Source: Candidatus Neomicrothrix sp. UBA4742
Lineage (GTDB): Bacteria > Actinomycetota > Acidimicrobiia > Acidimicrobiales > Acidimicrobilacustridaceae
DNA: 11,910 bases
NCBI GenBank assembly: GCA_002403895.1
Contig: DHIQ01000092.1
Coordinates: 3,553 to 15,462, forward strand
Reading direction: 5' to 3'
Shown here piece after piece: positions 1-11,910 of this stretch. Made by a program: the position numbers and the translations under genes. The number at the start of each line of letters is the position of its first letter. Position 1 is the stretch's first letter. A model generated the notes under the pieces. The model was not told the DNA's origin, ran no database searches, and worked only from the letters and a program-made list of their open reading frames with translations.

Positions 1-223
1 GGCCGAAAGCCATGACCAGCAGCTGGCGGAGCGGCTCGTAGTAGGGGCTGTCGCTGTTGGCTGAGACGAGCCTCGAGTGGCCGACTCGTCGGGATCGGAT
101 CAGGCCAGCGCGCTCTGCCCGTTCGATCTCCCGATGCACGGATGCCACCGGGATGTGAAGCTGGGCGCTCGCCACCGGGGCAGTGAACTCGTGGAGCTCA
201 ACCGGTAGACCCCTTCGATTGCG
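1..223 (-). pseudogene. Start-less fragment of a winged helix-turn-helix regulator, runs off the left edge
   Basis: The minus-strand reading frame encodes a recognisable wHTH segment: a recognition-helix region VASVHREIERAERAGL followed by the wing RSRRVGHSRLV and then ANSDSPYYEPLRQLL. This is the layout of actinobacterial wHTH proteins that are often fused to a nucleotidyltransferase domain, which would lie beyond the window edge. Family-like sequence (ELHEFTAPVASAQLHI) continues upstream to an in-frame TGA at 224-226. The only start codon in that stretch is GTG at 173-175, which would remove the first part of the HTH. I therefore read it as 5'-truncated, with the NuoF-like gene occupying the place of the missing start. 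The family match is from memory of conserved residues. A short functional protein starting at GTG 175 is the alternative. Confidence 0.5.
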
Positions 224-236
224 TCAGGAACTGCTC

Positions 237-1625
237 ATGGCCACGTTCTTGCTGTCCGGCGAGCCGATCACCTCACTCGACGCCTATCTGGCGACCGACG
301 CTGGTGGGTTGGGCGTCGAGCGCGCCCAGGAGCTGGGTCCGGTTGCCACCATCGACGAGGTGCTGCGGTCGGGTCTGCGCGGGCGAGGCGGAGGCGGTTT
401 CCCGACCGGCGAGAAGTGGGCGGGCATCGCCGCGCAGACTGGTGATCGCCGGTACCTGGTCTGCAACGGTGCCGAGGGCGAGCCGGGCACGTTCAAGGAC
501 CGGGCGCTGTTGCGCGCCAACCCCTATCAGCTCGTCGAAGGTCTCGTCATCGCCGGGTTCGCGGTCGGTGCCGTGGAGGCGTTCATCTGCCTGAAGCGCA
601 GCTTCCAACCCGAAATCGATGGTGTGACCCGCGCTGTCGAGGAGTTCCAGGCCGCGGGGATCTGCGGCGACTGCAAGGTCACCATCGTGGCGGGACCCGA
701 CGAGTATCTCTTCGGTGAGGAGAAGGCGATGCTCGAGGTCATCGAGGGCAACGAACCATTGCCCCGTTGGCTCCCACCCCACTTGCAAGGCTTGTTCGCC
801 ACCGCCCCTCAGCTCGGCTGGCAGTCCCATGAAGCCGAGACGGGGCACGTGCCCGGCACCGGGGCCAACCCGACCCTGGTCAACAACGTCGAGACCCTCT
901 CCAACATCCCGCACATCCTGGCTCGGGGATCGGACTGGTTCCGCTCGATGGGCACCGACGAGTCGCCCGGGACCATTGTCGCCACCGTTGTGGGCGATGT
1001 CGTTGGTCCCGATGTCGGCGAGGTCGAGCTGGGCACGCCGTTGAGAGCAGTCATCGATGCCGTCGGTAGTGGCGTCGACCCGGGGCGAACGGTGAAGGCG
1101 GTGTTCTCCGGCGTGGCGAACCCTGTCGTCACCGCCGCCCACCTCGATGCCGCGGTCAGTTACGAGGGGTTCCAGGCGATCGGCAGCGGGATGGGCGCCG
1201 CCGGGTTCATCGTCTATGACGACACCACATGCATGGTCGACGCCGCTTACCGGCTCTCCCGCTTTCTTTCCATCGAATCGTGCGGCCAGTGCCCGCCGTG
1301 CAAGCTCGGCTCGAGCGCGATCACCGACCACCTCGAGCGCATCGAAACCGGCGCCGGTACCGACGATGACATCGGGGCGATCGTCGGCTGGTTGGATCAC
1401 GTCACTGACGGCAACCGCTGCTACCTCGCCGTCGAGGAGCAGGTCATGGTCAACAGCATCTTGCGGGCCTTCCCCGAGGAGTTCGCTGAGCACATCGATC
1501 TGGGCCGTTGCCCCCGACCGCGACAGCTACCGATCCCGAAGCTCGTCGATCTCGTCGACGGAGTGGCCTTCTACGACGAGTCTTTCTGGCGCAAGCGACC
1601 AGACTGGACCTACGAGCCCGAATAG
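237..1625 (+). CDS. Stand-alone NuoF-like NADH-binding FMN/[4Fe-4S] protein
   Basis: This 462-residue protein has the fold signature of the complex I 51-kDa subunit, which takes a hydride from NADH onto FMN and passes electrons to a [4Fe-4S] cluster. The FMN loop GRGGGGFPTGEKW sits near residues 49-61. The nucleotide-site stretch NGAEGEPGTFKDR and the segment GEEKAMLEVIEG follow. The SLBB-like region comes next, and the cluster ligands are C349, C352, C355 (SCGQCPPC) and C395. ATG 237 is chosen because AGGA at 226-229 lies 7 bp upstream; a GTG at 183 in the same frame has no such site. No NuoE or NuoG partner is in the window, so the protein probably works with a separate thioredoxin-like or ferredoxin partner, or with a dehydrogenase. 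The gene is intact although both flanks are decayed. Its last residues (PDWTYEPE) run directly into an antitoxin remnant. The family is sure; the physiological partner is unknown. Confidence 0.9.
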   Translation: MATFLLSGEPITSLDAYLATDAGGLGVERAQELGPVATIDEVLRSGLRGRGGGGFPTGEKWAGIAAQTGDRRYLVCNGAEGEPGTFKDRALLRANPYQLVEGLVIAGFAVGAVEAFICLKRSFQPEIDGVTRAVEEFQAAGICGDCKVTIVAGPDEYLFGEEKAMLEVIEGNEPLPRWLPPHLQGLFATAPQLGWQSHEAETGHVPGTGANPTLVNNVETLSNIPHILARGSDWFRSMGTDESPGTIVATVVGDVVGPDVGEVELGTPLRAVIDAVGSGVDPGRTVKAVFSGVANPVVTAAHLDAAVSYEGFQAIGSGMGAAGFIVYDDTTCMVDAAYRLSRFLSIESCGQCPPCKLGSSAITDHLERIETGAGTDDDIGAIVGWLDHVTDGNRCYLAVEEQVMVNSILRAFPEEFAEHIDLGRCPRPRQLPIPKLVDLVDGVAFYDESFWRKRPDWTYEPE

Positions 1626-3271: not shown

Positions 3272-4171
3272 ATGTCCGATCCGACGGCCGAGCGCAAGAC
3301 GAGGCCGCCTACCGACGGTGGCGCGCCGAGTTCTGGGGCGCCGTGGAAGGAGGCCGCACGCTCGGTGGTGAACCATGCGCGCGACCACCAGCTGTCGCTG
3401 ATCGGTGCGGGGGTCGCGTTCTTCGGACTGTTGTCCATCGCCCCGGGTCTGGTGGCCGTCGTCTCGATTTACGGGCTGCTCGCGAGCCCCGCAGACATGA
3501 GCCGTCGGATCAGCGAGCTGAGCGGTGCGATGCCCGCCGAGGCTCGTCAGTTGCTCACCGATCAACTCGAGCAGATCGTGCGGTCGAGCAGCACCGGCCT
3601 TGGCGTGGCGCTGGTAGTGGGTGTGGCCGTCGCGTTGTGGAGCGCGTCGAGCGCCATCAAACAGCTCCTCGTCGCTCTCAGCGCGGTCTACGACGTCCCC
3701 GAGACCCGACAGTTCACCCGGTTGCGAGGGCTCGCGACGCTGCTCACACTCGGCGCTATAGCGTTTGTCGTCGCGACCCTCCTTGTCCTGACGGTGGTGC
3801 CTCGCTGGATCGGTGAGTCCGTCGGCGACGGTGGTCGGGCGGTGGTCGCCGTAACTCGGTGGCCGGTCCTCGCCGCGCTGATGCTCGGCGTGCTGGCCGT
3901 CGCCTACCACTACGGACCTGACCGTCCGCGGGGCCGGTGGCAGTGGTGGAGCTGGGGCGCCGTCACGGCCGCGGCGTCGTGGTTGGTGGCGTCGGCCCTG
4001 TTCTCTGTCTATGTCACGCACTTCGGGTCCTACAACAAAACCTACGGCGCCCTCGCCGCCGTCGTGGTGTTGATGCTGTGGCTCTACTTCAGCGCGCTCT
4101 GTGTGCTTCTGGGAGGCGAGATCAACGCTGAGCTCGACCGCCGCCGAGATCAGCGGGCACCCGCCAGGTGA
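3272..4171 (+). CDS. YihY/BrkB-family integral membrane protein
   Basis: This 299-residue polytopic protein has about six hydrophobic segments, near residues 41-70, 108-136, 153-177, 195-213, 228-248 and 257-281. Family hallmarks are visible: the early SLIGAGVAFFGLLSIAPGL, the central AIKQLLVALSAVYDVPE, and the C-terminal FGSYNKTYGALAAVVVLMLW with YFSALCVLLGGEINAE. The name BrkB and the link to RNase BN are historical; the actual transport or envelope role of this family is unsettled. The start at 3272 is supported by AGGAGG at 3261-3266. The last 50 bp overlap the 3' end of the convergent histidine kinase gene. It diverges from DUF4235, and both may share control. The family call is firm; the function is not. 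Confidence 0.92.
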   Translation: MSDPTAERKTRPPTDGGAPSSGAPWKEAARSVVNHARDHQLSLIGAGVAFFGLLSIAPGLVAVVSIYGLLASPADMSRRISELSGAMPAEARQLLTDQLEQIVRSSSTGLGVALVVGVAVALWSASSAIKQLLVALSAVYDVPETRQFTRLRGLATLLTLGAIAFVVATLLVLTVVPRWIGESVGDGGRAVVAVTRWPVLAALMLGVLAVAYHYGPDRPRGRWQWWSWGAVTAAASWLVASALFSVYVTHFGSYNKTYGALAAVVVLMLWLYFSALCVLLGGEINAELDRRRDQRAPAR

Positions 4172-5189
4172 GGATCGACCCGCCGCTGGCGGCGCGGCCA
4201 ATGGTGCAGGCCCCACCCAGCTGTTGGGCCCGACTGGACATGTTGGTGAGTCCTCGCCCGCCCAGCACCTCGTCGGGTACGCCGACCCCGTCATCGCTGA
4301 CCTGCAGGACCACTTCCTTGGAGACCGACACGATGACCCGAGCGTTCTGAGCACCCGCGTGGCGGGCGACGTTGACCAGCGCCTCGCGCAGCACCGGGAT
4401 CAGGTGCTCGGCGATATCGGGATCGATGGTCTCGATCGGTCCGTCGAACTGCAACCTCGGCTCGAAGCCGAGTGCATCGGAGGTATCGGTGATCACCTCC
4501 AGCACCCGCCCTCGCAGCCCACCCGGCGAAGCGGCGGCGGCGTGGAGGGAGAAGATTGCCATCCGTAGGTCCTTGATCGTCCCGTCCAGGTCGTCGACGG
4601 TGACCTCGAGCCGGGCTCGGGTCCGGTCGTCGGTCCCCGCCATGGTGGACTGCAGGTTCAAGCCGGCGGCGAAGAGCCGTTGGATGACCGTGTCGTGCAG
4701 GTCCCGGGCGATGCGGTCGCGGTCATCGGCCACCGCCAGAACCTGTTCGGCCTGACGCAGGGCTTCCTGGCTCTGACGCAACTCCTCCTCCGCCTCGACC
4801 CGGTCGGTCACGTCGCGCACTGCAGCCACCGCGAAGACCTCACCCCCGAGTCGGAGCGGGCTCAGGCTGATCTCGACGGGGAACCGGGTGCCGTCGGCGC
4901 GTCGGGCTCGCAACCGGAAGCCGGCACCCATGGGTCGTGTCGTCGGGTCGGTCCGGTACCGGGTGCGATGGGCCTGATGGATGGCCGCGAGCTCCTCGGG
5001 TATGAGGATCTCGACCGGGGTTCCGATCAGAGCCTCGGCGTCGTAGCCGAACAGGGCCAGGGCCTGATCGTTGACGAAAACGATCTCGCCGGTCGCCGCC
5101 GCGATGAGGACCCCGTCGGGCGTGGCGTCGAGCAACGACCAAGAGAACTCGTCCCCGTAGGGCTCGAGGACCGGTGAGCGTGCTCCCAT
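4122..5189 (-). CDS. PAS-domain sensor histidine kinase (HisKA_3/NarL type)
   Basis: This 355-residue cytoplasmic kinase has no membrane segment. A single PAS domain covers about residues 15-128 (GVLIAAATGEIVFVNDQALALFGY; PAC end VAAVRDVTDR). A short coiled linker (about 130-152) leads to the HisKA_3 dimerisation box DRDRIARDLHDTVIQRLF with phospho-acceptor H165. The HATPase N-box is LREALVNVARHA (N273) and the G-box DDGVGVPDEVLGGRGL. This is the DosS/DevS-like branch that pairs with LuxR/NarL-type response regulators, but no regulator is in the window. The PAS ligand (haem, flavin or none) cannot be read from sequence. ATG 5189 is chosen because AAAGG lies about 6 bp upstream and PAS homology starts soon after; the frame stays open to 5474 without family sequence. 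It overlaps the YihY tail by 50 bp. Confidence 0.9.
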   Translation of the reverse strand: MGARSPVLEPYGDEFSWSLLDATPDGVLIAAATGEIVFVNDQALALFGYDAEALIGTPVEILIPEELAAIHQAHRTRYRTDPTTRPMGAGFRLRARRADGTRFPVEISLSPLRLGGEVFAVAAVRDVTDRVEAEEELRQSQEALRQAEQVLAVADDRDRIARDLHDTVIQRLFAAGLNLQSTMAGTDDRTRARLEVTVDDLDGTIKDLRMAIFSLHAAAASPGGLRGRVLEVITDTSDALGFEPRLQFDGPIETIDPDIAEHLIPVLREALVNVARHAGAQNARVIVSVSKEVVLQVSDDGVGVPDEVLGGRGLTNMSSRAQQLGGACTIGRAASGGSILTWRVPADLGGGRAQR

Positions 5190-5299
5190 CGCAGCCTTTC
5201 GCCAGCACGGGGCGGCCACCCCACCCCGTTCGATCGCGTAACGGCTGCGAGCCGCCACGTGGGCCGAACGGTAGCGCTTTCGCCCACTGGGGTGGGTGG

Positions 5300-5319
5300 C
5301 CCGGGTTCTCCCGGGTTCT
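5300..5319. repeat. Perfect tandem duplication of a 10-bp unit
   Basis: CCCGGGTTCT occurs twice back to back, each copy starting with the palindrome CCCGGG, followed closely by GGTCCCGG. It sits in the non-coding gap between the kinase and the PPOX gene. Spacing of one helical turn is what a cooperative dimeric regulator could use. That use is inference; replication slippage is the simple alternative. Confidence 0.45.
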
Positions 5320-5382
5320 GGTCCCGGTCCAACGCCGATGGAGCAGAACGTCCCATCTCGCACCGCACCCCGGGCACCGATC

Positions 5383-5396
5383 GGGACCTTGGACTC
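5383..5396 (+). promoter_or_regulatory. Candidate Dos-box-like operator upstream of PPOX
   Basis: GGGACCTTGGACTC matches 12 of 14 bases of a site upstream of the copper-protein operon (11155-11168, minus). It also resembles the left half of the mycobacterial DosR box (TTSGGGACT followed by its mirror), while the right half is poor. It lies 104 bp upstream of the PPOX start. The neighbouring PAS kinase is of the DosS-like class, which motivates the suggestion. It is a pattern-only call. Confidence 0.3.
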
Positions 5397-5500
5397 TGGT
5401 GCCCACCGCCGGTGCGGTCGCAAAATCGATCGATAGACGAAACTCGCAACGGGCCAGACCTGCCACACGGGCATGGCACGCGGGGGGCTGATCGGACAGC

Positions 5501-5920
5501 ATGAAACTTGATCGCAATGGCCTCGAGGTGCTCGACGAGCGAGAGTGTCGAGTACTGCTCGGTGGGGTGAACATCGGTCGCGTGGGTCTGTCCATCAGGG
5601 CCCTGCCGGTGGTCTTGCCGGTCAACTTCACGCTGCTGCTCGACGCCCTGGTGGTGTGCACCAGCCCGGGCTCGAAGTTCGAAGCCGCTTGCAACCGAGC
5701 CATCGTCGCGTTCGAAGCCGACGGGGTGGAACTCGAGAGTCGCACCGGGTGGAGCGTTCTGGTCCAGGGCCGGGCGACCGTGATCGACCAGCCCACGGAA
5801 CTGCGTGAGGGGAGCGGGCTGAGCTTGGCACCGTGGGGCAACCCCGACGCTGAGAGCTTCGTCAGGATCGGACTGGATGTGGTCAGCGGCCGCCGGGTGC
5901 GCCACCAACTCCACACCTGA
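5501..5920 (+). CDS. Pyridoxamine 5'-phosphate oxidase-family (split barrel) flavin-binding protein
   Basis: This 139-residue soluble protein has the FMN/F420-binding split-barrel pattern. An opening LDERECRVLLGGVNIGRVGL is followed by strand residues ALPVVLPVNFTLLLDALVVC, then TSPGSKFEAA, the strand AIVAFEADGVE, and SGWSVLVQGRA-like residues (RTGWSVLVQGRATVID). The family includes small flavin reductases and nitroreductase-like proteins. Substrate and cofactor (FMN or F420) cannot be decided here. The ribosome binding site is weak: a G-run lies about 13 bp before ATG 5501, but the conserved LDExE start of the domain follows closely, so this start fits. It diverges from the PAS kinase. Proteins of this family are often stress or hypoxia induced in actinobacteria, which fits the candidate operator upstream. 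Confidence 0.88.
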   Translation: MKLDRNGLEVLDERECRVLLGGVNIGRVGLSIRALPVVLPVNFTLLLDALVVCTSPGSKFEAACNRAIVAFEADGVELESRTGWSVLVQGRATVIDQPTELREGSGLSLAPWGNPDAESFVRIGLDVVSGRRVRHQLHT

Positions 5921-5956: not shown

Positions 5957-6427
5957 TCAACGCTTGCCCTGCCGCCACGCCGGGACGCTCGGCGCGTCCG
6001 GCTCGAGCGAACGCAGGTAGGTCGCGAGCTGGCGAACCTGCTCATCGGTGAGTGTGCCTCCGTAGGCCAGGCTCCACGCCGACATGTCCGAGCCCGACAC
6101 CCCGCCGGAGACGATGTTCTGGATCTGGCCGTCTGACGTCGCCTTCAGGAACTCCTTGGCGTCCAGCACCGGCGCGCTCCCGCCGACCGCCCCCTTGCCG
6201 TGACACGACGAGCAATTGGTCTCGAACAGCTGGCTGCCGATGTCGCGGTAGGTGGTCTGTTGCTCCGCGGCCGCGTCCGAACGCAGCGTGGGCTCGCGGA
6301 CCTTGTAGGTGACGAAGCCGGCGATCAGCAGAGCCATGAAGACGAGGCCGGCGACGAGGTACCGGTCGAGGCTCCGTTCCAGGGACTCAGGCTCGAATGG
6401 GGGAGGGCTGGGACGCTCACGAGGCAT
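5957..6427 (-). CDS. Membrane-anchored monoheme cytochrome c, last gene of the Rieske/cyt b operon
   Basis: This 156-residue protein has an N-terminal cytoplasmic stretch, one transmembrane anchor (about residues 22-42, LVAGLVFMALLIAGFVTY) and a periplasmic class-I-like domain. The haem c site is CSSCH (72-76), and the likely sixth ligand is M115 in SGSDMSAW. It ends with the typical helix DEQVRQLATYLRSL. The protein should accept electrons from the Rieske cluster, as cytochrome c1 or f does, although the fold is the small class I type rather than c1 or f. The start is 3 bp beyond the Rieske stop, with GAAGGG as ribosome binding site inside the Rieske gene, so translation is coupled. The convergent PPOX gene ends 36 bp away; no clear terminator hairpin is seen between them. 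Confidence 0.93.
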   Translation of the reverse strand: MPRERPSPPPFEPESLERSLDRYLVAGLVFMALLIAGFVTYKVREPTLRSDAAAEQQTTYRDIGSQLFETNCSSCHGKGAVGGSAPVLDAKEFLKATSDGQIQNIVSGGVSGSDMSAWSLAYGGTLTDEQVRQLATYLRSLEPDAPSVPAWRQGKR

Positions 6428-6430
6428 GGG

Positions 6431-6937
6431 TCAACCCTTCGGCTGGCAGTTGGGGCCCTTCGGGGGCGAGAAGTACTGCGCCGCTCCCCGGGCCGGACCG
6501 GCGATCTGCTTGGAGGTGTCCACCACCACCGCGTCGCCGTCGGTGCTGATGGGGTACTGCGTCATGCCCACCGGTGACGGCCCCTCGATCCACTCCCCGC
6601 CGATGTCGAAAACCGATCCGTGACACGGGCATTCGAAGCGGCCCGACGAATCGCAGAATGGCACCCGGCACCCGAGATGCGGGCATTTCTGAGAGATGGC
6701 GAGCAGGGTCGTGCCCGTGTTGGCGACGAACAGGCGACCCTCAGGGACGTAGGTGGCCGTCCCTGCCGCGTAGTTCCCGGTGTTGGCCAGCTTGATCGGG
6801 CCCCCTTTGCCGGAACCGGCCAGCGGCCGGAGGGACTCGAACAGCGTCCAACCGGCGGCAGCGGCCAGGATGGTGGCGCCAAGCCTCCACCCGGCGTTGA
6901 GGAAGTTGCGGCGAGACGTGGCGGCAGGGGCGGTCAT
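6431..6937 (-). CDS. Rieske [2Fe-2S] protein with Tat-type anchor
   Basis: This 168-residue protein begins with a twin-arginine signal (SRRNFLNAG, residues 8-16) and a hydrophobic stretch (about 19-34) that probably stays as a membrane anchor. Box I is C85-P-H87-L-G-C90 and Box II is C103-P-C105-H106-G-S. C85, H87, C103 and H106 would hold the cluster, and C90-C105 would form the disulfide of high-potential Rieske proteins. Box I has Pro where many have Thr. The protein takes one electron from quinol at the Qo site of the cytochrome b encoded just upstream and passes it to cytochrome c or the cupredoxin. ATG 6937 has AGGAG 5 bp upstream, overlapping the cytochrome b stop (8-bp gap). The C-terminal extension, rich in G, P and Q, is short and unassigned. 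Confidence 0.95.
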   Translation of the reverse strand: MTAPAATSRRNFLNAGWRLGATILAAAAGWTLFESLRPLAGSGKGGPIKLANTGNYAAGTATYVPEGRLFVANTGTTLLAISQKCPHLGCRVPFCDSSGRFECPCHGSVFDIGGEWIEGPSPVGMTQYPISTDGDAVVVDTSKQIAGPARGAAQYFSPPKGPNCQPKG

Positions 6938-6945
6938 GGTGGCTC

Positions 6946-8355
6946 CTAGAGCTCGACGTACCAGTGGGTCCAGGGGGCGACGAACTGCCAGCCGGGTCCC
7001 CGGAAGAAGGTCCCGACGATGGTCAACACCACGGCGAGGACGACCAACCCGGAGAAGATGACGATGGCCACCTTGCGCTGGCGGGCGATGGTCGACGGGT
7101 TCCGGTCGATGTAGGGCAGCAGCACCAGGGTGAGCACGGCACCCATGGGCACGAGGATGCCGGCGACGAGCGGGTCGAAATGGGAGAGCAACTCCTGGAG
7201 GCCAGCGAAGTACCAGGGAGCCTTGGCCGGTTCGGGGGTGAGGTTGGGGTTGGCCAGCCCCCGTAGCGGCGCGGCGAACAGCACCCCGAGGGCGAGCACC
7301 ACCGTCGCCACCCCCAGAGCGACCACCACGTGACGGACGATGAGGTGCGGCCAGCTGAACACGGTGTCGTCGACGGCCCGTTCCTCCGCGGTGACCGACT
7401 CGCGATCCACCACGCCGAGCACCCGGGTGCGCCCGCCGTAGAGCTCGGCCGGGGCCGAGGCCGGCACGGCCGCGGCGGGCAGAGCGGTGGCCTCTTCGGC
7501 GAAGGCACCGCTCGTGCCCACCGCCGAGCGCTCGACCGCGAAGCCGTCCTTGCGTACCCGCCAGATGTGGATGGACAGGGCGACCACGACCGCGATGGGC
7601 AGCACGGCCACGTGCAGCGCGTAGAACCGCAACAACGTGGGCTGGCCGATCTGCGGGCCACCGATCAGGAGGTCCTGCAGGGTATTGCCGATGACGGGCA
7701 CGTAATGGACCAGGTTCGTCCCGACCGTGACGGCCCAGTAGCTAAGTTGATCCCAGGGCAGGAGGTACCCGGTGAACGACAGGGCCAGCGTGAGCAACAG
7801 GAGGATCACGCCGATCACCCAGTTGAACTCGCGCGGCTTCTTGTAGGCGCCGGCGTAGAACACGCGGATCAGGTGGAGGAACAGCACCAGCACCATGAGG
7901 TGGGCCGACCACCGGTGCACGTTGCGTATCAACTGTCCGAATCCGACCCCGGTGCGGATCACCTGCATGTCGCCGTAGGCCGAGCCGACCGACGGTGTGT
8001 AGAAGAACATGAGGTACACGCCGGTCAGCGTGAGGATGCCGAACAGTACGGCGGCGATGAAGCCCAGCCGGAACGAGTATCGCAGGCGCAGCACCCGGGC
8101 CGGGATCTTGATCGGGTAGACGTGCAGGAAGAAGTTGGAGAACCCCTGGAGGGCCCGACCCCTGGGCGTCTCGATCCGGGGATGGCGGAAGACCGACCGC
8201 CAGGCGCGGCTGCGCTCGATCCGGGCCACCATCCCGGAGCCGGGCGCATAGGCCACGGCGGGCTCGAGGGGGTCGCGAGTCGGGGCCTCCGTGGGGACGA
8301 CTGCGGTCGCACCTTGGGGCGCGGGTTTCCGCGGGTCAGACTCGTTGTCGGCCAC
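6946..8355 (-). CDS. Fused cytochrome b (b6 plus subunit IV) of a Rieske/cyt b complex
   Basis: This 469-residue membrane protein is the quinol-oxidising core. The b6-like half (about 75-270) carries haem ligand pairs H147/H161 (NVHRWSAHLM, LFLHLIRVF) and H248/H263 (FYALHVAVL, SIHIWRV). The gaps of 14 and 15 positions are those of cytochrome b6, not of mitochondrial-type b. A hydrophilic linker (about 270-335) joins it to the subunit-IV-like half, with NPNLTPEPAKAPWYF (369-383) at the Qo site and three helices ending in WYVEL. Where b6 has the cysteine that binds haem c_i, the aligned stretch reads RYSFRLG, so that haem is probably absent. GTG 8355 has AGGAGG 6 bp upstream and overlaps the flavoprotein 3' end by 20 bp. 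The long N-terminal cytoplasmic tail (about 70 residues) is unusual. Confidence 0.94.
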   Translation of the reverse strand: MADNESDPRKPAPQGATAVVPTEAPTRDPLEPAVAYAPGSGMVARIERSRAWRSVFRHPRIETPRGRALQGFSNFFLHVYPIKIPARVLRLRYSFRLGFIAAVLFGILTLTGVYLMFFYTPSVGSAYGDMQVIRTGVGFGQLIRNVHRWSAHLMVLVLFLHLIRVFYAGAYKKPREFNWVIGVILLLLTLALSFTGYLLPWDQLSYWAVTVGTNLVHYVPVIGNTLQDLLIGGPQIGQPTLLRFYALHVAVLPIAVVVALSIHIWRVRKDGFAVERSAVGTSGAFAEEATALPAAAVPASAPAELYGGRTRVLGVVDRESVTAEERAVDDTVFSWPHLIVRHVVVALGVATVVLALGVLFAAPLRGLANPNLTPEPAKAPWYFAGLQELLSHFDPLVAGILVPMGAVLTLVLLPYIDRNPSTIARQRKVAIVIFSGLVVLAVVLTIVGTFFRGPGWQFVAPWTHWYVEL

Positions 8356-10189
8356 CGGCCACCTCCTGGGCGTTCACCATGGACAGCGCCCCCGGGGGGC
8401 ATCGATTGACGCACAGGCCGCAGCGGATGCACTGGTCCTCGTCGAGGAGCAGCACGCTCTGGGCCTCGGTCCCGAGCTCGAGCTGGTCGGCCCGGGCGAT
8501 CGTGATGCAGTTCGTCGGGCAGACGTCGACGCACAACCCGCACAAGATGCACAGGGACGGTTCGAGCATGACGTTGTCGAAACAGCGCAGGCAGCGCAGC
8601 GACTCGAGCCAGGCGTCCTGGCTGTCGTAGCCAACCTCGACCTCGGCAAACCCGGTCCGACGTTCGGTCGCCATGGCGGGGACCGCTTGGCGGGCGATGG
8701 CGTCATAGCCGGTGGAGAGTCGGCGGTAAGCCGGCCGGCGGGTGAGCTCGACGTGCACGCCTCGCGCCGGTTGGACGCCTTCGGGGTCCGCGGGCTCGGG
8801 GTCGCCGGGGACGGACGCGGCGTGGATCGAACGGGCCGCCCGCTGGCCGTCGGCCACCGCGTCGATCAGGTTCCGGGGCCCCCGGGCAACGTCGCCGCCC
8901 GCCCAGATCCGTGGGTCGGAGGTCCGCAGGGAGCTCGGGTCAGCCTGTACCCCCCCGCCCCGGGTGCGCTCGATCGGTCGGTCACCCAGAAAGTCGAGTT
9001 CGGCGGTCTGGCCGACGGCCAGGATGATGGTGTCGGCCGGCAGGACGTTCTCGGTGTGGTGGATGAACGTCGGGGCAAATCGGCCGGCGGCATCGAACAC
9101 CGACTCGACGTCGATGGTCTCCAGCCCCGTGACCCGCCCGTCGGCGCCGATGAAGCGGTGCGGTCCCTTGCGGAACACGATGGTGATGCCCTCGGCCTCT
9201 GCCTCTTCGATCTCCTCGGGGTCCGCCGGGATCTCCTCTTCGGACTCGAGGGCGATCACGGTGACGCTCTGCACTCCCTCGCGTACCGCGGCGCGGGCCA
9301 CGTCGAGCGTCGTGGTCATGGCCCGCCGGGCGTCTTCGGCCGTGCCGGCCACCGCGGGCTCGGAGCCGTTGCTGGAGCTGCCACCGGCCGCGGCCCGCAA
9401 GGCGGTGCGGGCCGCGTCGAAGGCCACGTTCCCCCCTCCGACCACCACCACCCGTTCGCCCAGGTGGACCTGGTACCCCTGATTCACGTTCAACAGGAAC
9501 TCGACTGCCCGCACCACACCGTCCTGATCGGCACCGGGCAGGTCGAGGCTGCGTCCCCGCCCGGTCCCCACGGCGAGGAAGAGCTGATCGTGGCGCTCCA
9601 GCAACTCGTCGAGGCTGACGGTCTCGCCGATCCGGGCGCCGAGTTTCACCTCGATGCCCAGCTCGACGATGGCCTCGATCTCCCGGGCGATGAGCTCCCG
9701 GCTGAGCCGGTACTCGGGGATGCCCAGCACCATCATCCCGCCCAGGCGGCCGGCCGCTTCGTAGACGGTGACGGGATGGCCCAGCAGGCGCAGTTCGTAG
9801 GCCGCGGACAGCCCAGCCGGGCCACCGCCGATGATGCCCACCGAACTGCCCGCAGCCGGCGGCACCGGACCGTGGGCCTCGTGCCAGACCGCGGCGGCGT
9901 GGAAGCTCTCCACCCCGAACTGATCGGTCACGTAGCGCTTGAGGGCCCGGATGGCGACGGGGGCGTCGACGGTGGCGCGGCGGCAAGCCGTCTCGCAGGG
10001 GGCGGCGCACACCCGACCGCAGATCGAGGGGAAGGGATTGGGAGCACGGGCGATGAGGTAGGCATCGCGGGGGCGGCCCTCGGCGATGGCGGTGACGTAG
10101 GCGCCGGCATCGGTGTGCACCGGGCAGGCGGCCCGGCACGGCTCGTTGGCCCACAGCCAGGCGGCGTCGGGGATGCCAGGTCGGGGCAC
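8336..10189 (-). CDS. GltD/NfnB-like NAD(P)/FAD oxidoreductase with N- and C-terminal Fe-S domains
   Basis: This 617-residue soluble protein is built as: an N-terminal GltD-type Fe-S domain (C18, C22, C57, C61, C65, C69; ANEPCRAACPVHTDAGAY, CGRVCAAPCETACRR), an FAD-binding motif GIIGGGPAGLSAAYE (118-132), an NAD(P)-binding motif VVVVGGGNVAFDAART (247-262), the second FAD contact IWAGGD (428-433), and a ferredoxin tail. The tail has CLRC (533-536) and two [4Fe-4S] motifs, CILCGLCVDVCP (547-558) and CIRCGLCVNRCP (587-598). Relatives shuttle electrons between NAD(P)H and ferredoxin-type partners. Encoded between the 2-TM protein and cytochrome b, it is probably the cytoplasmic module of the complex. 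GTG 10189 shares its G with the preceding TAG (TAGTG); GGGGG lies about 8 bp upstream. The direction of electron flow is not readable from sequence. Confidence 0.93.
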   Translation of the reverse strand: MPRPGIPDAAWLWANEPCRAACPVHTDAGAYVTAIAEGRPRDAYLIARAPNPFPSICGRVCAAPCETACRRATVDAPVAIRALKRYVTDQFGVESFHAAAVWHEAHGPVPPAAGSSVGIIGGGPAGLSAAYELRLLGHPVTVYEAAGRLGGMMVLGIPEYRLSRELIAREIEAIVELGIEVKLGARIGETVSLDELLERHDQLFLAVGTGRGRSLDLPGADQDGVVRAVEFLLNVNQGYQVHLGERVVVVGGGNVAFDAARTALRAAAGGSSSNGSEPAVAGTAEDARRAMTTTLDVARAAVREGVQSVTVIALESEEEIPADPEEIEEAEAEGITIVFRKGPHRFIGADGRVTGLETIDVESVFDAAGRFAPTFIHHTENVLPADTIILAVGQTAELDFLGDRPIERTRGGGVQADPSSLRTSDPRIWAGGDVARGPRNLIDAVADGQRAARSIHAASVPGDPEPADPEGVQPARGVHVELTRRPAYRRLSTGYDAIARQAVPAMATERRTGFAEVEVGYDSQDAWLESLRCLRCFDNVMLEPSLCILCGLCVDVCPTNCITIARADQLELGTEAQSVLLLDEDQCIRCGLCVNRCPPGALSMVNAQEVAGGRQRV

Positions 10190-10488
10190 TAGATGAGCCC
10201 CCGGGCCTGGAGGCGGCGCAGCGCCCAGGCCGCCACCCCGACCACGACCAGGAACAGCGCACTGGCCAGCCACACCCGGTTGTCCCGGCTCAGGCCGGTG
10301 ACGTTGGTCAGGAACCAGTCGGTGCCGACGATCGTGACCCCGAGTGCGATGGCCAGGGCGAGCAGTCCCGACCCGATGGCCCGCGGCCAGCCGATGCTGG
10401 CCTGGGGGACCTCGGGGCCGTCCCCGCCGACGTCCGGCGCTCCCTCCGAAGAGGACGCCCTGACGCCGGCGGGTTCAGCAGTGCTCAC
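10189..10488 (-). CDS. Small two-helix membrane protein of the Rieske/cyt b operon
   Basis: This 99-residue protein of unrecognised family has a hydrophilic N-terminus of about 35 residues rich in G, S, P and E. Two hydrophobic helices follow, at about 38-57 (GSGLLALAIALGVTIVG) and 72-90 (VWLASALFLVVVGVAAWAL), and a short basic end (RRLQARGLI). Its GTG start overlaps the stop of the copper-protein gene as GTGA (10485-10488), and its own stop overlaps the flavoprotein start. It is thus translated in step with redox subunits on both sides, which suggests a structural or assembly subunit that docks the soluble flavoprotein to the membrane. That role is inference. No metal- or haem-binding residues stand out. 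Confidence 0.8.
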   Translation of the reverse strand: MSTAEPAGVRASSSEGAPDVGGDGPEVPQASIGWPRAIGSGLLALAIALGVTIVGTDWFLTNVTGLSRDNRVWLASALFLVVVGVAAWALRRLQARGLI

Positions 10489-11024
10489 GAGACCGTGAAC
10501 GGGGCTTCCATGCCCATCGTGTAGTGCTGGGCGATGTTGCAGACGAGCGCGTAGTTCCCGGCGGCCATGGCCTTGACGGTGAACGTCCGGGTCTGGCCTG
10601 GCTGGAGGTTCGGTTCGCCGGTTTCTCCGACACTGGAAGCCTCGTCGACCTTGTCGGCCCCGGTGGCGACGGGCGCCGGCGGGTCACCGCCATCGACGAC
10701 CGGCAGTTTGTTGTAGGTGGTGCCGGCCGGCAACAGGAGGACGATCACCTCGTGTTCGATCGTGCCCGTGTTCTTCACGATGAACGTCACATCCCCGGCC
10801 TTGGCCGCGTTGGGCGTGGCCACGAGCGTCATGGGCCCGGTGAGGCCCGTGGTGTCACTCACCACGATGTTGACGGTGTTCCCCAATGCGGGGGTGGTGA
10901 CCGATACGCCGCCACCGGCGGACGAGGAGGTGGAACTCGAGTTCTTCGAAGAACTCGAACACCCGGAGAGGGCGGCGATCAGCGCGACCGCTACGACCAC
11001 AGAACCCAGCTTGATTCGAGCCAT
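10485..11024 (-). CDS. Sulfocyanin-like type-1 copper lipoprotein, first gene of the operon
   Basis: This 179-residue protein has a lipoprotein signal (MARIKLGSVVVAVALIAALS with lipobox LSGC, lipidated C22) and a Ser/Gly-rich tether (23-40). A cupredoxin domain follows. Type-1 copper ligands are H91 (TIEHEVIVLLLP) and the C-terminal loop C162-N-I-A-Q-H167-Y-T-M-G-M172. The C-x4-H-x4-M spacing is that of sulfocyanin and related proteins. An insert of about 35 residues (100-140) lies between the first His and the ligand loop. The protein would face outward and carry electrons from the Rieske/cyt b complex to an oxidase, or stand in for cytochrome c. ATG 11024 has GAAAGGG 7 bp upstream; the frame is open further upstream but shows no family sequence there. 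The leader contains tandem hairpins. Confidence 0.9.
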   Translation of the reverse strand: MARIKLGSVVVAVALIAALSGCSSSSKNSSSTSSSAGGGVSVTTPALGNTVNIVVSDTTGLTGPMTLVATPNAAKAGDVTFIVKNTGTIEHEVIVLLLPAGTTYNKLPVVDGGDPPAPVATGADKVDEASSVGETGEPNLQPGQTRTFTVKAMAAGNYALVCNIAQHYTMGMEAPFTVS

Positions 11025-11049: not shown

Positions 11050-11086
11050 TCCCGCTTCTTGCGGGAGACGTGGTCTTCAGGACCAC
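11050..11086 (-). promoter_or_regulatory. Tandem stem-loops in the leader of the redox operon
   Basis: On the minus strand two perfect 6-bp hairpins with 5-nt loops follow each other 3 bases apart: GTGGTC-CTGAA-GACCAC (11086-11070) and TCCCGC-AAGAA-GCGGGA (11066-11050). They end about 25 bp before the copper-protein start, just ahead of the ribosome binding site. A TAGTCT lies about 1 bp upstream of the first stem and could be a -10 element; no clear -35 is seen. They may stabilise the mRNA or control translation. They are not followed by T-runs. Confidence 0.45.
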
Positions 11087-11250: not shown

Positions 11251-11898
11251 CTAGCGGGGAGCGGGGTTGCGGGCATGGCGGAGGAGCGCCACGACCTCCT
11301 TGTCGGACACGGCGGAGAAGTCGGCGTAGAATTGGCCCACGGCGCCGAAGGGATGGGGTGCCTCCAGGCACACGATCTCGTCGGCGACGTCGCCCAGCTT
11401 CTCGATGGCATCGCGTGGGGCGACCGGGACGGCGAGCACCACCCGGGCTGCCCCCTGGACCCGGGCCACCTCGCATGCTGCCCGGGCGGTCGAGCCGGTG
11501 GCGAGGCCGTCGTCGACCAGGATCACCGTCCGACCCTGAAGCGCCAGCTTGGGCGCATCGGCGCGGTAGCGGGCGGCGCGCCGCTCGAGTTCGACACGCT
11601 CCTGACGCTCAACCGTGCTGAACTGCTCATCGGTCACCTGCGCGGCGCGGACCACGTCCTGCGTGACCACGCGAAACCCGCCCTCACCGATGGCACCCAT
11701 GGCCAGCTCCGGTTGGAAGGGCACCCCGACCTTGCGGACGAACATCACGTCCAGCGGCGCGGCCAGCGCCCGGGCCACCTCAGCGGCTACCGGGACACCG
11801 CCCCTCGGCAGGCCGACCACGATCGTGTCGGGCCCCCGGAGATAACCGAGGCGCCGGCCGAGCTCACGACCCGCTTGAGCCCGATTGTCGAAGATCAC
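11251..11898 (-). CDS. Phosphoribosyltransferase-domain protein (Rv0571c-like)
   Basis: This 215-residue protein is of the type I PRTase fold. The PRPP-binding motif VILVDDGLATGST is at about 125-137. Upstream are the family stretches VVGLPRGGVPVAAEVARAL (28-46) and RKVGVPFQPELAMGAIGEGG (55-74), and the C-terminal part holds AVGQFYADFSAVSDKEV. The set is typical of an actinobacterial group of uncertain substrate, whose Mycobacterium tuberculosis member Rv0571c belongs to the dormancy regulon (family knowledge). GTG 11898 is chosen over the in-frame GTG 11904: AGGAGG (11905-11910) has a 6-bp spacer to the former and none to the latter. The gene ends 227 bp before the copper-protein start and is read in the same direction, probably as a separate unit. 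Confidence 0.88.
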   Translation of the reverse strand: MIFDNRAQAGRELGRRLGYLRGPDTIVVGLPRGGVPVAAEVARALAAPLDVMFVRKVGVPFQPELAMGAIGEGGFRVVTQDVVRAAQVTDEQFSTVERQERVELERRAARYRADAPKLALQGRTVILVDDGLATGSTARAACEVARVQGAARVVLAVPVAPRDAIEKLGDVADEIVCLEAPHPFGAVGQFYADFSAVSDKEVVALLRHARNPAPR

Positions 11899-11910
11899 GA
11901 TCACCCTCCT

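Follow-up and report, generated by a model that had tools for sequence, protein, structure and literature searches.

The window analysed here is a stretch of 11,910 nt from Candidatus Neomicrothrix sp. UBA4742 (GCA_002403895.1, contig DHIQ01000092.1, positions 3,553-15,462 of the forward strand). Between window positions 5957 and 11024 it carries an operon of six genes, all on the minus strand. The first gene encodes a blue-copper lipoprotein of 179 aa, which will be referred to as the cupredoxin (11024..10485, ATG start), followed by a 2-TM protein of 99 aa (10488..10189, GTG), a flavoprotein of 617 aa (10189..8336, GTG, in an open frame that extends to 10273), a cytochrome b of 469 aa (8355..6946, GTG), a Rieske protein of 168 aa (6937..6431, ATG) and, as last gene, a membrane-anchored monoheme cytochrome c of 156 aa (6427..5957, ATG). 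The genes are joined by overlaps of 4, 1 and 20 bp, the longest between flavoprotein and cytochrome b, and by gaps of 8 and 3 bp, matching to the base the arrangement given in a first-pass annotation of the sequence. Pfam cut-offs were exceeded by the flavoprotein, the cytochrome b, the Rieske protein and the cytochrome c. A perfect 6-5-6 palindrome, GTGGTC-N5-GACCAC (11070..11086, no strand assigned), is located 45 bp upstream of the cupredoxin ATG and is the window's only zero-mismatch match of its pattern; it is possibly an operator, and the perfect inverted repeats detected ahead of 11 relatives did not include it. A DosR-like operator was dropped (27 matches versus 20.7 expected), and a NuoF-like gene at 183-1625 was rejected as part of the system, as tblastn of the related loci gave no match.

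The flavoprotein is composed of Fer4_20, an FAD/NAD Pyr_redox_2 domain, an RCLxC motif and a ferredoxin tail with two [4Fe-4S] clusters, as assigned by Pfam and NCBIfam, and its relatives in the PDB are NfnA (9n5u, E = 1.2e-91), 9bov/9bp5 and NfnI (5jca). Among the 120 homologues listed of 7041 matches, the Cys set together with K84 was present in 118-120; K84, which lies near the FAD-proximal cluster, was detected in all 120 and in 24 of 24 linked rows. Judged by position, K84 presumably corresponds to the Lys described in PMC12954380. As a Lys of this type also occurs in several unlinked rows besides all linked groups, it is not diagnostic of flavin-based bifurcation. Flavoprotein and cytochrome b together contain complete ligand sets for four Fe-S clusters, the FAD/NAD domains and two b haems.

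In the flavoprotein the motif ALES closes the second strand of the NAD domain; it was found in 120/120 listed matches. The RR of NADPH-type GltD/NfnB flavoproteins is not present in the window protein; LE occupies this site in all 14 rows of the window's phylum and both acidobacterial rows, and RR in all eight anammox-linked ones. The replacement of RR by LE at the presumed 2'-phosphate position suggests that NAD rather than NADP is preferred. Fold and conserved specificity motif back the NAD(P) link proposed by the first-pass annotation. Direct coupling to ferredoxin, also considered there, finds no support, because the Fe-S domains belong to the flavoprotein and the operon contains no separate ferredoxin gene. 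A flavoprotein structure predicted from a 14-row alignment was poor (pLDDT 55.4) and was set aside.

The cytochrome b represents a b6-like domain (PF00033, E = 1.8e-50) fused to a subunit-IV-like domain (PF00032, E = 2e-11), with H147, H161, H248 and H263 as b-haem ligands. A hydropathy scan yielded three hydrophobic stretches in the subunit-IV-like domain (343-447), in which APWYF stands where PEWY would be. The position of the haem c_N cysteine is occupied by R96. This Cys was found in none of the 14 rows of the window's phylum, in neither of two acidobacterial rows and in none of the 120 listed cytochrome b matches; it is present in 8/8 anammox rows and in 52 of 66 loci in which no full-length flavoprotein was found, several of these loci being short. 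H78, proposed as ligand of an extra b haem, is conserved as the same His in 66/66 of the latter loci; being equally conserved without the flavoprotein, it is not diagnostic and provides no argument for NAD coupling. H78 is located 190 residues ahead of R268 compared to 204 residues between His and matching Arg in anammox bacteria (5/5 rows measured), a difference explained by a 14-residue insert.

The Rieske [2Fe-2S] protein (PF00355, E = 3.1e-10) has a twin-arginine-like N-terminus by eye, and the hydropathy scan detected no TM stretch (maximum 1.08). Its cluster motif CHGS-V-F contains the potential-raising Ser and has Phe in place of Tyr. Kustd1480 shares these features and is at the same time its best PDB match (9rk3, E = 7.3e-16) and one of the two anammox Rieske proteins with reported potentials. 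The cytochrome c (PF13442, E = 1.5e-10) contains one CxxCH motif (CSSCH) and a single hydrophobic stretch (23-41).

For the cupredoxin three Pfam matches were obtained, each under its cut-off. Among 120 homologues listed of 334 found, however, the copper ligands H91, C162, H167 and M172 are kept in 119-120 and the lipobox Cys22 in 106. The predicted structure (pLDDT 82.9) retrieved auracyanin, rusticyanin and azurin in a fold search, and a His, Cys, His and Met set within a predicted cupredoxin fold argues for a type-1 copper site. The initial annotation as a blue copper protein thus stands. The designation sulfocyanin-like is weak, since PF06525 (sulfocyanin, SoxE) gave 19.2 bits versus a gathering score of 21, although some listed homologues do carry precomputed PF06525; the best match by sequence profile and fold alike is auracyanin of Roseiflexus (6kol), and the protein is better described as auracyanin-like. 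The suggested pairing of the copper protein with the complex was strengthened by fusion proteins of two relatives (P0220 and P0224), each containing both a cytochrome c and a cupredoxin. The cytochrome halves of P0220 and P0224 are 73% and 71% identical to the window cytochrome c, and the cupredoxin half of P0220 is 66% identical to the window cupredoxin, which we propose to be the electron acceptor of the complex. The 2-TM protein, with two hydrophobic stretches, belongs to no known family in Pfam or NCBIfam and is proposed to be an anchor or small subunit. A scripted scan detected a 2-TM gene directly ahead of the flavoprotein gene in 12 of the phylum's 14 loci; the remaining two were found by eye (L014) and by tblastn (L044).

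Close flavoprotein homologues unlinked from cytochrome b, the outcome that the first-pass annotation had named as speaking against it, did not prevail: all 14 distinct loci detected in the phylum with a close flavoprotein, which cover many families, have cytochrome b next to it. The operon is thus a conserved unit and not a chance neighbourhood. The cupredoxin was not detected by tblastn in six of the 14 loci (L013, L014, L036, L037, L040 and L043), two of which reach a contig edge. The linkage recurred among metagenome protein clusters: in the lists of 120 matches per search, 23 identical longest-contig sizes were common to flavoprotein and cytochrome b, and 12 to flavoprotein and cupredoxin. 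As another cytochrome b and NuoH are encoded in all 14 cluster-bearing genomes tested, the six-gene complex would represent an added function. Haem-copper oxidase genes, a possible electron sink, are present in the window's genome.

A single clade of all linked flavoproteins was rejected (AU p = 0.0016 with 40 rows and 0.00026 with 35 rows), indicating repeated recruitment of the module, or else its loss; one gain followed by losses is possible. For cytochrome b, a tree that unites every flavoprotein-linked row in a single clade was neither rejected nor shown (p-AU = 0.084).

Contig C233, which is binned in the window's genome (G000), carries a version of the cluster with a split cytochrome b. 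A paralogue, and with it two complexes in one cell, was considered and rejected: four pieces of C233, ~12.6 kb in total, are 99.9-100% identical to a contig of G237, a genome related to the window's only at phylum level, and the tetranucleotide distance of C233 is 3.62 to G237 and 4.17 to G000. The matching piece of G237 itself is far from both (4.66 and 5.05), and the window's contig (C199) is closer to G000 (2.13) than to G237 (3.01). In a control with 20 contigs of each genome, omitting four (G000) and three (G237) below 4000 bases, 14/16 G000 and 17/17 G237 contigs were placed on their own side. C233 is therefore probably misbinned and was counted once, as belonging to G237, a true second copy in the window's genome being improbable.

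The operon resembles the Rieske/cytochrome b-NAD(P) oxidoreductase complexes of Kuenenia, R/b-2 (Kustd1480-1485) and R/b-3 (Kuste4569-4574), as described in PMC12954380, the names being from PMC8862662. The anammox parallel named by the first-pass annotation was confirmed in the former, and anammox homologues were detected and set against the window proteins. In the window as in anammox bacteria, Rieske protein, b6-like cytochrome b, subunit-IV-like protein and flavoprotein are encoded together, the anammox gene order of such clusters being seen in L046 and L149; the GltD/NfnB-like flavoprotein with its four-cluster Cys set and Lys as well as the His at the proposed extra-haem site are shared. 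The anammox proteins possess the haem c_N Cys, whereas R, Y or F replaces it in the window's phylum, and their subunit IV has five TM stretches (L045, L046, L048, L149 and L152) compared to three in the window. Five-TM forms also occur in L062 and L079, two of the loci without a full-length flavoprotein found. The separate 2-TM gene was found ahead of the flavoprotein in none of the four anammox loci scripted; the idea that it supplies the two missing helices received no sequence support by eye. Instead of a monoheme cytochrome c and a cupredoxin, the anammox clusters encode cytochromes with six to eight haems (six and eight CxxCH motifs in L149, eight in L046) and an HAO-like protein. Their NAD(P) motif is RR (NADPH-type) compared to LE (NADH-type), the NAD domain of the window flavoprotein is ~35 residues longer, and the flavoproteins of the two do not form one clade. 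By sequence, the window version falls outside the R/b-2, R/b-3 family despite the shared architecture.

Two more clusters, L154 and L155, were detected in an acidobacterial MAG (G453). Like the window they combine Rieske protein, cytochrome b without the c_N Cys and an LE-type flavoprotein in one locus; their flavoprotein belongs to the sister lineage, L154 has a cytochrome with eight CxxCH motifs, L155 adjoins FixG and an E1-E2 metal ATPase, and tblastn gave no cupredoxin match in either. With the chloroplast and cyanobacterial cytochrome b6f the window shares the four-helix b6-like domain, the three-TM subunit IV and the b-haem ligands, but differs in the b/IV fusion, the missing haem c_N Cys and cytochrome f, and the flavoprotein in the operon. 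NfnA/NfnABC, NfnI and GltD (9n5u, 9bp5, 5jca, 2vdc) likewise contain Fer4_20, the FAD/NAD(P) core and RCLxC; in the window, however, RCLxC follows the NAD domain, whereas in 4ylf and 5jca it precedes the Fer4_20 stretch, LE replaces RR, and the operon has no second flavin subunit. Actinobacterial qcrCAB (bcc) also comprises Rieske, cytochrome b and cytochrome c subunits, but the NCBIfam cut-offs were far from reached (QcrB 119/500, QcrA 29/275 and QcrC 36/200 bits), the window cytochrome c is monoheme, and flavoprotein and copper protein are added. Auracyanin in Chloroflexi serves Alternative Complex III. Unlike auracyanin of Roseiflexus and Chloroflexus, the window cupredoxin is encoded with a Rieske/cytochrome b operon, and its homologues in P0220 and P0224 are fused to the cytochrome c of that operon. 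This gene combination was not found outside anammox bacteria in the literature searched, most subscription journals being beyond reach, nor in passages of PMC3578206 and PMC8862662.

Based on gene order, cofactor ligands, linkage, the cytochrome c/cupredoxin fusion in relatives and the absence of the c_N Cys, we infer, with about as much doubt as confidence, that the six genes encode an extra, specialised Rieske/cytochrome b complex in which menaquinol bifurcation drives NAD+ reduction. The products would assemble as one complex, and menaquinol would be oxidised at Q_P. One electron would pass downhill via the Rieske protein, the anchored cytochrome c and the blue copper lipoprotein to a terminal oxidase. 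The other would travel from haem b_P to haem b_N, perhaps also via an extra b haem held by H78, and enter the flavoprotein on the cytoplasmic side, whose four Fe-S clusters would relay it to FAD and NAD+, so that NADH would be formed without reversing complex I. The anammox complexes have been modelled with the same cofactor chain, and their Rieske potentials of +303 and +335 mV were argued to be compatible with NAD(P)H production (PMC12954380). The same source names a high-potential side step at haem c_N as a difficulty in that model, which the window form, having no haem c_N, would avoid. Several points count against the NAD+ route, among them the six loci in which no cupredoxin was detected by tblastn. 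Q_N, if intact, could divert b_N electrons to quinone. In addition, neither RuBisCO (PF00016 in 1/12 cluster-bearing genomes, at 138 bits, versus 68/396 sampled) nor [NiFe] hydrogenase (3/12 versus 152/396) is associated with the cluster; both were rejected as the cause of the NADH demand, which leaves an extra demand without explanation. Reverse electron flow serving RuBisCO CO2 fixation is hence not supported, and the first-pass interpretation as a whole is partly supported.

The same parts would permit electrons to run in reverse, from NADH via the Fe-S chain of the flavoprotein and cytochrome b to menaquinone at Q_N. The complex would then be an NADH:quinone reductase that does not pump or that balances redox state, comparable to the cyclic flow driven by ferredoxin/FNR at b6f. 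Steps at flavins and Fe-S clusters can proceed either way, and an Fe-S chain beside b_N would fit; nevertheless we consider this unlikely, as complex I (NuoH in 14/14 tested genomes) already performs the reaction with energy gain, and a dedicated Rieske protein, cytochrome c and cupredoxin would be left in the operon without reason. Moreover, haem c_N is a usual suspect for such a b6f route, and its Cys is lacking from the 14 rows and the 120 listed matches. Flavin-based bifurcation similar to Nfn, with FAD sending NADH electrons partly to cytochrome b/quinone and partly to a carrier of low potential, for instance ferredoxin, is suggested by the nearest solved relatives, which are Nfn/Bfu-family subunits, and by the two ferredoxin-type clusters in the tail. 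It appears highly improbable, since the operon contains no gene for a second flavin subunit, ferredoxin or ferredoxin oxidoreductase, and the FAD-proximal Lys is also found in several unlinked rows.

The flavoprotein might also be a soluble NADH-dependent oxidoreductase that is merely co-transcribed with an otherwise ordinary b6c-type menaquinol:cytochrome c reductase. Its single hydrophobic stretch (539-565) is in fact the Cys-rich ferredoxin motif, sister-lineage relatives in two anammox genomes are found near or overlapping an MTHFR gene (2/3 rows), and the same type of cytochrome b occurs in the 66 loci mentioned above. We regard this as improbable, too: linkage in 14/14 loci over many families, the 20 bp overlap of the flavoprotein and cytochrome b frames with the 2-TM partner kept ahead, and the recurrence of the pairing in the acidobacterial MAG and in anammox bacteria all argue against it, as does the finding that the subunits of one anammox complex all migrate together (earlier work cited in PMC12954380).

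If quinol bifurcation towards NAD+ is correct, the operon encodes a complex-I-independent route from quinol to NADH. For anammox bacteria, which are not known in pure culture, the question has been raised whether one of the two quinol electrons can be passed to NAD(P)+ by a Rieske/cytochrome b complex. The compact six-gene version, which brings a copper acceptor of its own and lacks haem c_N, lies in a genome with haem-copper oxidase genes and represents a simpler test system and a second natural design to set beside the anammox one. More tentatively, and with the balance somewhat against it, quinol-driven NAD(P)+ reduction by Rieske/cytochrome b may have been assembled independently at least two times, as an NADPH-type form with multihaem cytochromes in anammox bacteria and, in the window's phylum, as an NADH-type form that has no haem c_N and uses an arm of cytochrome c and blue copper protein. 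The acidobacterium has the NADH-type flavoprotein as well. The His corresponding to H78, kept without the flavoprotein, is relevant to the published extra-haem model of the anammox complexes.

Six ORFs lie in tandem on the minus strand between window positions 11024 and 5957; the first three junctions are overlaps (4, 1 and 20 bp) and the last two are gaps (8 and 3 bp). In order of transcription they encode a lipoprotein cupredoxin (all Pfam matches under cut-off), a 2-TM protein (no Pfam match), a flavoprotein of 617 aa, a cytochrome b of 469 aa, a Rieske protein and an anchored, single-CxxCH cytochrome c, the last four all matching Pfam above cut-off. The genome carrying the operon (G000; 79% complete, 285 contigs, 3.55 Mb) is probably a MAG, and the composition of the window's contig agrees with it. 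Among the best protein matches, those carrying a taxon name indicate Acidimicrobiales/Acidimicrobiia and Actinomycetes.

To carry out a check suggested in the first-pass annotation, namely for conserved neighbourhoods of flavoprotein and cytochrome b, genomes were searched with the flavoprotein as query. Close homologues were detected in 3 of the 61 genomes neighbouring that of the window (E up to 1e-60) and in 12 of 396 genomes sampled over the phylum (E up to 1e-120), the window's own genome being included in both samples; none was found in the 36 other genomes of its family. This yielded 14 distinct loci, among them the window, and in all 14 the cytochrome b gene adjoins the flavoprotein gene. 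A Rieske match follows downstream in 13, the remaining one (L013) being a fragment at a contig end, and the Rieske gene of L043 is likewise broken off. Cytochrome c is present in 12 loci, the contigs of L013 and L043 stopping before its position. A script located a 2-TM gene upstream of the flavoprotein in 12 loci; in the remaining two it was recognised by eye or with tblastn. Using tblastn, a cupredoxin was detected close to the operon in eight loci (window, L034, L035, L038, L039, L042, L044 and L041, the last in divergent orientation), and no match was obtained in L013, L014, L036, L037, L040 and L043. In a protein database searched separately, 23 longest-contig sizes agreed exactly between the flavoprotein and cytochrome b matches (best 120 of 7041 and best 120 of 7898), and 12 between the flavoprotein and cupredoxin matches (best 120 of 7041 and best 120 of 334); equal size is strong, though not conclusive, evidence that two matches share a contig. 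The neighbourhood is thus conserved among the loci found, which do not show the usual lack of linkage between flavoprotein and cytochrome b that the first-pass annotation named as refuting evidence.

One locus was present twice and counted once. Contig C233 of G000 (L012, 1-20000) shares about 12.6 kb, at 99.9-100% identity, with contig C106 (L041) of G237, a genome sharing only the phylum with G000, and its composition is closer to G237 than to G000. On C233 the operon has a split cytochrome b, and next to it lies what by eye is a DoxX-like/Rieske fusion.

For comparison with the Kuenenia anammox complexes R/b-2 (Kustd1480-1485) and R/b-3 (Kuste4569-4574), named genomes were scanned with a 96-residue piece of Kustd1480 taken from its PDB alignment (9rk3; Kuste4569 is 9rk4), and the best 80 of 543 relatives were analyzed. 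A full-length flavoprotein, 34-35% identical to the window's, was found in six of these loci (Brocadia, Scalindua, a Brocadiaceae MAG and one 'Planctomycetes bacterium'); of the 74 others, 66 yielded a cytochrome b row. A search of twelve whole genomes added L149 and L152, which are Kuste4569-74-type clusters of the Brocadia genome and a Scalindua genome, as well as two clusters in an acidobacterial MAG (L154, L155). Cytochrome b was present in these four of the 15 neighbourhoods examined and absent from eleven. At L155 (contig C24 of genome G453), FixG and an E1-E2 metal ATPase are encoded beside Rieske, cytochrome b and flavoprotein, hinting at a link to cbb3-type oxidase assembly. A Kustd1480-like Rieske (66% identity) also occurs with cytochrome b in a MAG record titled 'Klebsiella pneumoniae' (L056, CAMBZJ010000047.1); Alphaproteobacteria and Deltaproteobacteria MAGs listed alongside have such a Rieske with cytochrome b too, and the title may be wrong.

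The nearest solved relatives of the flavoprotein are NfnA/NfnABC-type and NfnI-type subunits. The (R)RCLQC stretch, located ahead of the Fer4_20 part in 4ylf and 5jca, lies behind the NAD domain (residues 508-536) in the window flavoprotein, so that two cluster ligands appear to be relocated to the opposite chain end. Together with the Fer4_20 cysteines and two CxxCxxCxxxC motifs, these ligands are predicted to hold four Fe-S clusters. Judging from its position, K84 is likely the counterpart of the buried lysine next to the FAD-proximal cluster of the Kuenenia flavoprotein (PMC12954380, in excerpt). The second strand of the NAD domain ends in ALES in the window and in YRR(T/S) in five aligned PDB relatives. 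The LE type was observed in 14/14 rows of the phylum, 2/2 acidobacterial rows and 120/120 of the best 120 of 7041 matches; all 8/8 anammox flavoproteins encoded together with cytochrome b are of the RR type. In this fold an acidic residue usually binds the NAD ribose, and arginines the 2'-phosphate of NADP. By this rule the window flavoprotein should use NAD(H) and the anammox flavoproteins NADP(H).

In the flavoprotein tree the window's phylum forms one clade (100/98), next to which stand the acidobacterial rows, followed by a lineage found in anammox genomes (L150, L159, L162); the anammox flavoproteins linked to cytochrome b are placed at two other points. With a small outgroup of sixteen unlinked flavoproteins, a single clade of all linked flavoproteins was rejected (p-AU 0.0016 with 40 rows; 0.00026 after removing five long rows, where the LE group has 100/99.6 support); for cytochrome b the same grouping was not rejected (p-AU 0.084). 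The linkage label needs three changes on the tree and may alternatively reflect one gain and two losses; the reading we prefer is that the flavoprotein was recruited repeatedly. In the unlinked sister lineage, the flavoprotein gene lies near an MTHFR gene in L150 (G448) and overlaps one in L162 (G451), and the C-terminal part of the L162 protein, the one scanned, is a FlpD domain. These two flavoproteins are candidate NADH modules for methylene-THF reduction.

The cytochrome b is a single chain comprising a b6-like domain and subunit IV, and its four b-haem histidines are invariant among the rows compared. In the alignment, R96 stands where b6 has its haem c_N-binding cysteine. This position holds R, Y or F in 14/14 rows of the phylum (L012 representing the duplicated locus), R in all of the best 120 of 7898 matches, Y/G in the two acidobacterial rows and Cys in 8/8 anammox flavoprotein-linked rows; the 66 rows from loci in which no full-length flavoprotein was found have Cys (52) or Gly (14).

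For the anammox complexes, an extra b haem was proposed at His43 in Kuste4571 and at His62 in Kustd1481, close to Arg247 and Arg266/Lys267 (Hauser et al., PMC12954380, in excerpt); His and Arg are 204 residues apart in each protein. In the window, H78, located within FFLHxYPxK, is 190 residues from R268, and the aligned residues are 204 apart in 5/5 anammox rows measured. A 14-residue insert explains the difference, so the two sites match. The H78 column is also His in 66/66 rows (L045-L124) from the loci without a full-length flavoprotein found, several of which are short, with a flavoprotein possible elsewhere in the genome; the L062 genome, for example, also contains L154 and L155. Since His is kept in these rows, H78 is less useful for recognising NAD(P) coupling, both in the window and in anammox.

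Rieske potentials of +303 mV and +335 mV were reported for Kuste4569 (Ser127/Tyr129) and Kustd1480 (Ser114/Phe116), respectively (PMC12954380, in excerpt). The window Rieske has Ser and Phe (CHGSVF), and the motif is whole in 22 of 24 tabulated rows (L013 and L043 are broken off; L012 and L041 are one locus), all 22 having CHGS and F or Y two residues on, which makes a high potential plausible. Two cupredoxin homologues of 299 aa, P0220 and P0224, consist of the operon's cytochrome c in the N-terminal half (154 residues aligned, 73% identical in P0220 and 71% in P0224) and the cupredoxin in the C-terminal half (66% identity over 137 residues for P0220; by eye for P0224). Given these fusions, the cytochrome c of the last gene and the cupredoxin of the first very likely act jointly, on the same membrane side. 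Tandem cupredoxin domains in single proteins were also noticed among relatives of the copper lipoprotein (P0122, P0128, P0130; L039, L044, by eye).

Another cytochrome b and a NuoH gene were found in 14/14 cluster-bearing genomes tested, and haem-copper oxidase genes are present in the window's genome; the Rieske/cytochrome b complex is thus an addition. In the phylum sample, RuBisCO was detected in one of 12 genomes that carry the cluster (G070, with 138 bits where top scores exceed 400 bits) compared to 68 of 396 overall, and [NiFe] hydrogenase in 3 of 12 compared to 152 of 396, so that neither shows an association that would explain a need for NADH. Menaquinol lies near -70 mV and NAD(P)+ near -320 mV (PMC12954380, in excerpt). 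Assuming menaquinone as the quinone, one electron would move 250 mV uphill to NAD(P)+, paid for by a second electron dropping to the high-potential copper/oxygen arm. The authors of the anammox model estimate that haem c_N is about 250 mV higher in potential than the remaining cofactors and discuss what keeps quinone from being reduced at this haem (PMC12954380, in excerpt). A complex without haem c_N would face less of this difficulty.

Elsewhere in the window, a NuoF-like protein (Complex1_51K and NADH_4Fe-4S; 183-1625, plus strand) scored under the NCBIfam NuoF cut-off and has no counterpart beside the related operons compared. A 93-aa ORF (1860-2141) with a PIN-domain match of 22.4 bits against a cut-off of 23.6 is perhaps a VapC-type toxin gene, and positions 3272-4171 encode a membrane protein of the YihY/BrkB family (PF03631, 205.6 bits). 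The operon flanks (4122-5920 and 11251-11904) encode a PAS histidine kinase, a pyridoxamine-oxidase-like protein and a phosphoribosyltransferase, a set reminiscent of mycobacterial dormancy regulons; DosR-like sites occurred at a frequency near chance. A pyridoxamine-oxidase-like match lies close to the operon in L034 as well.
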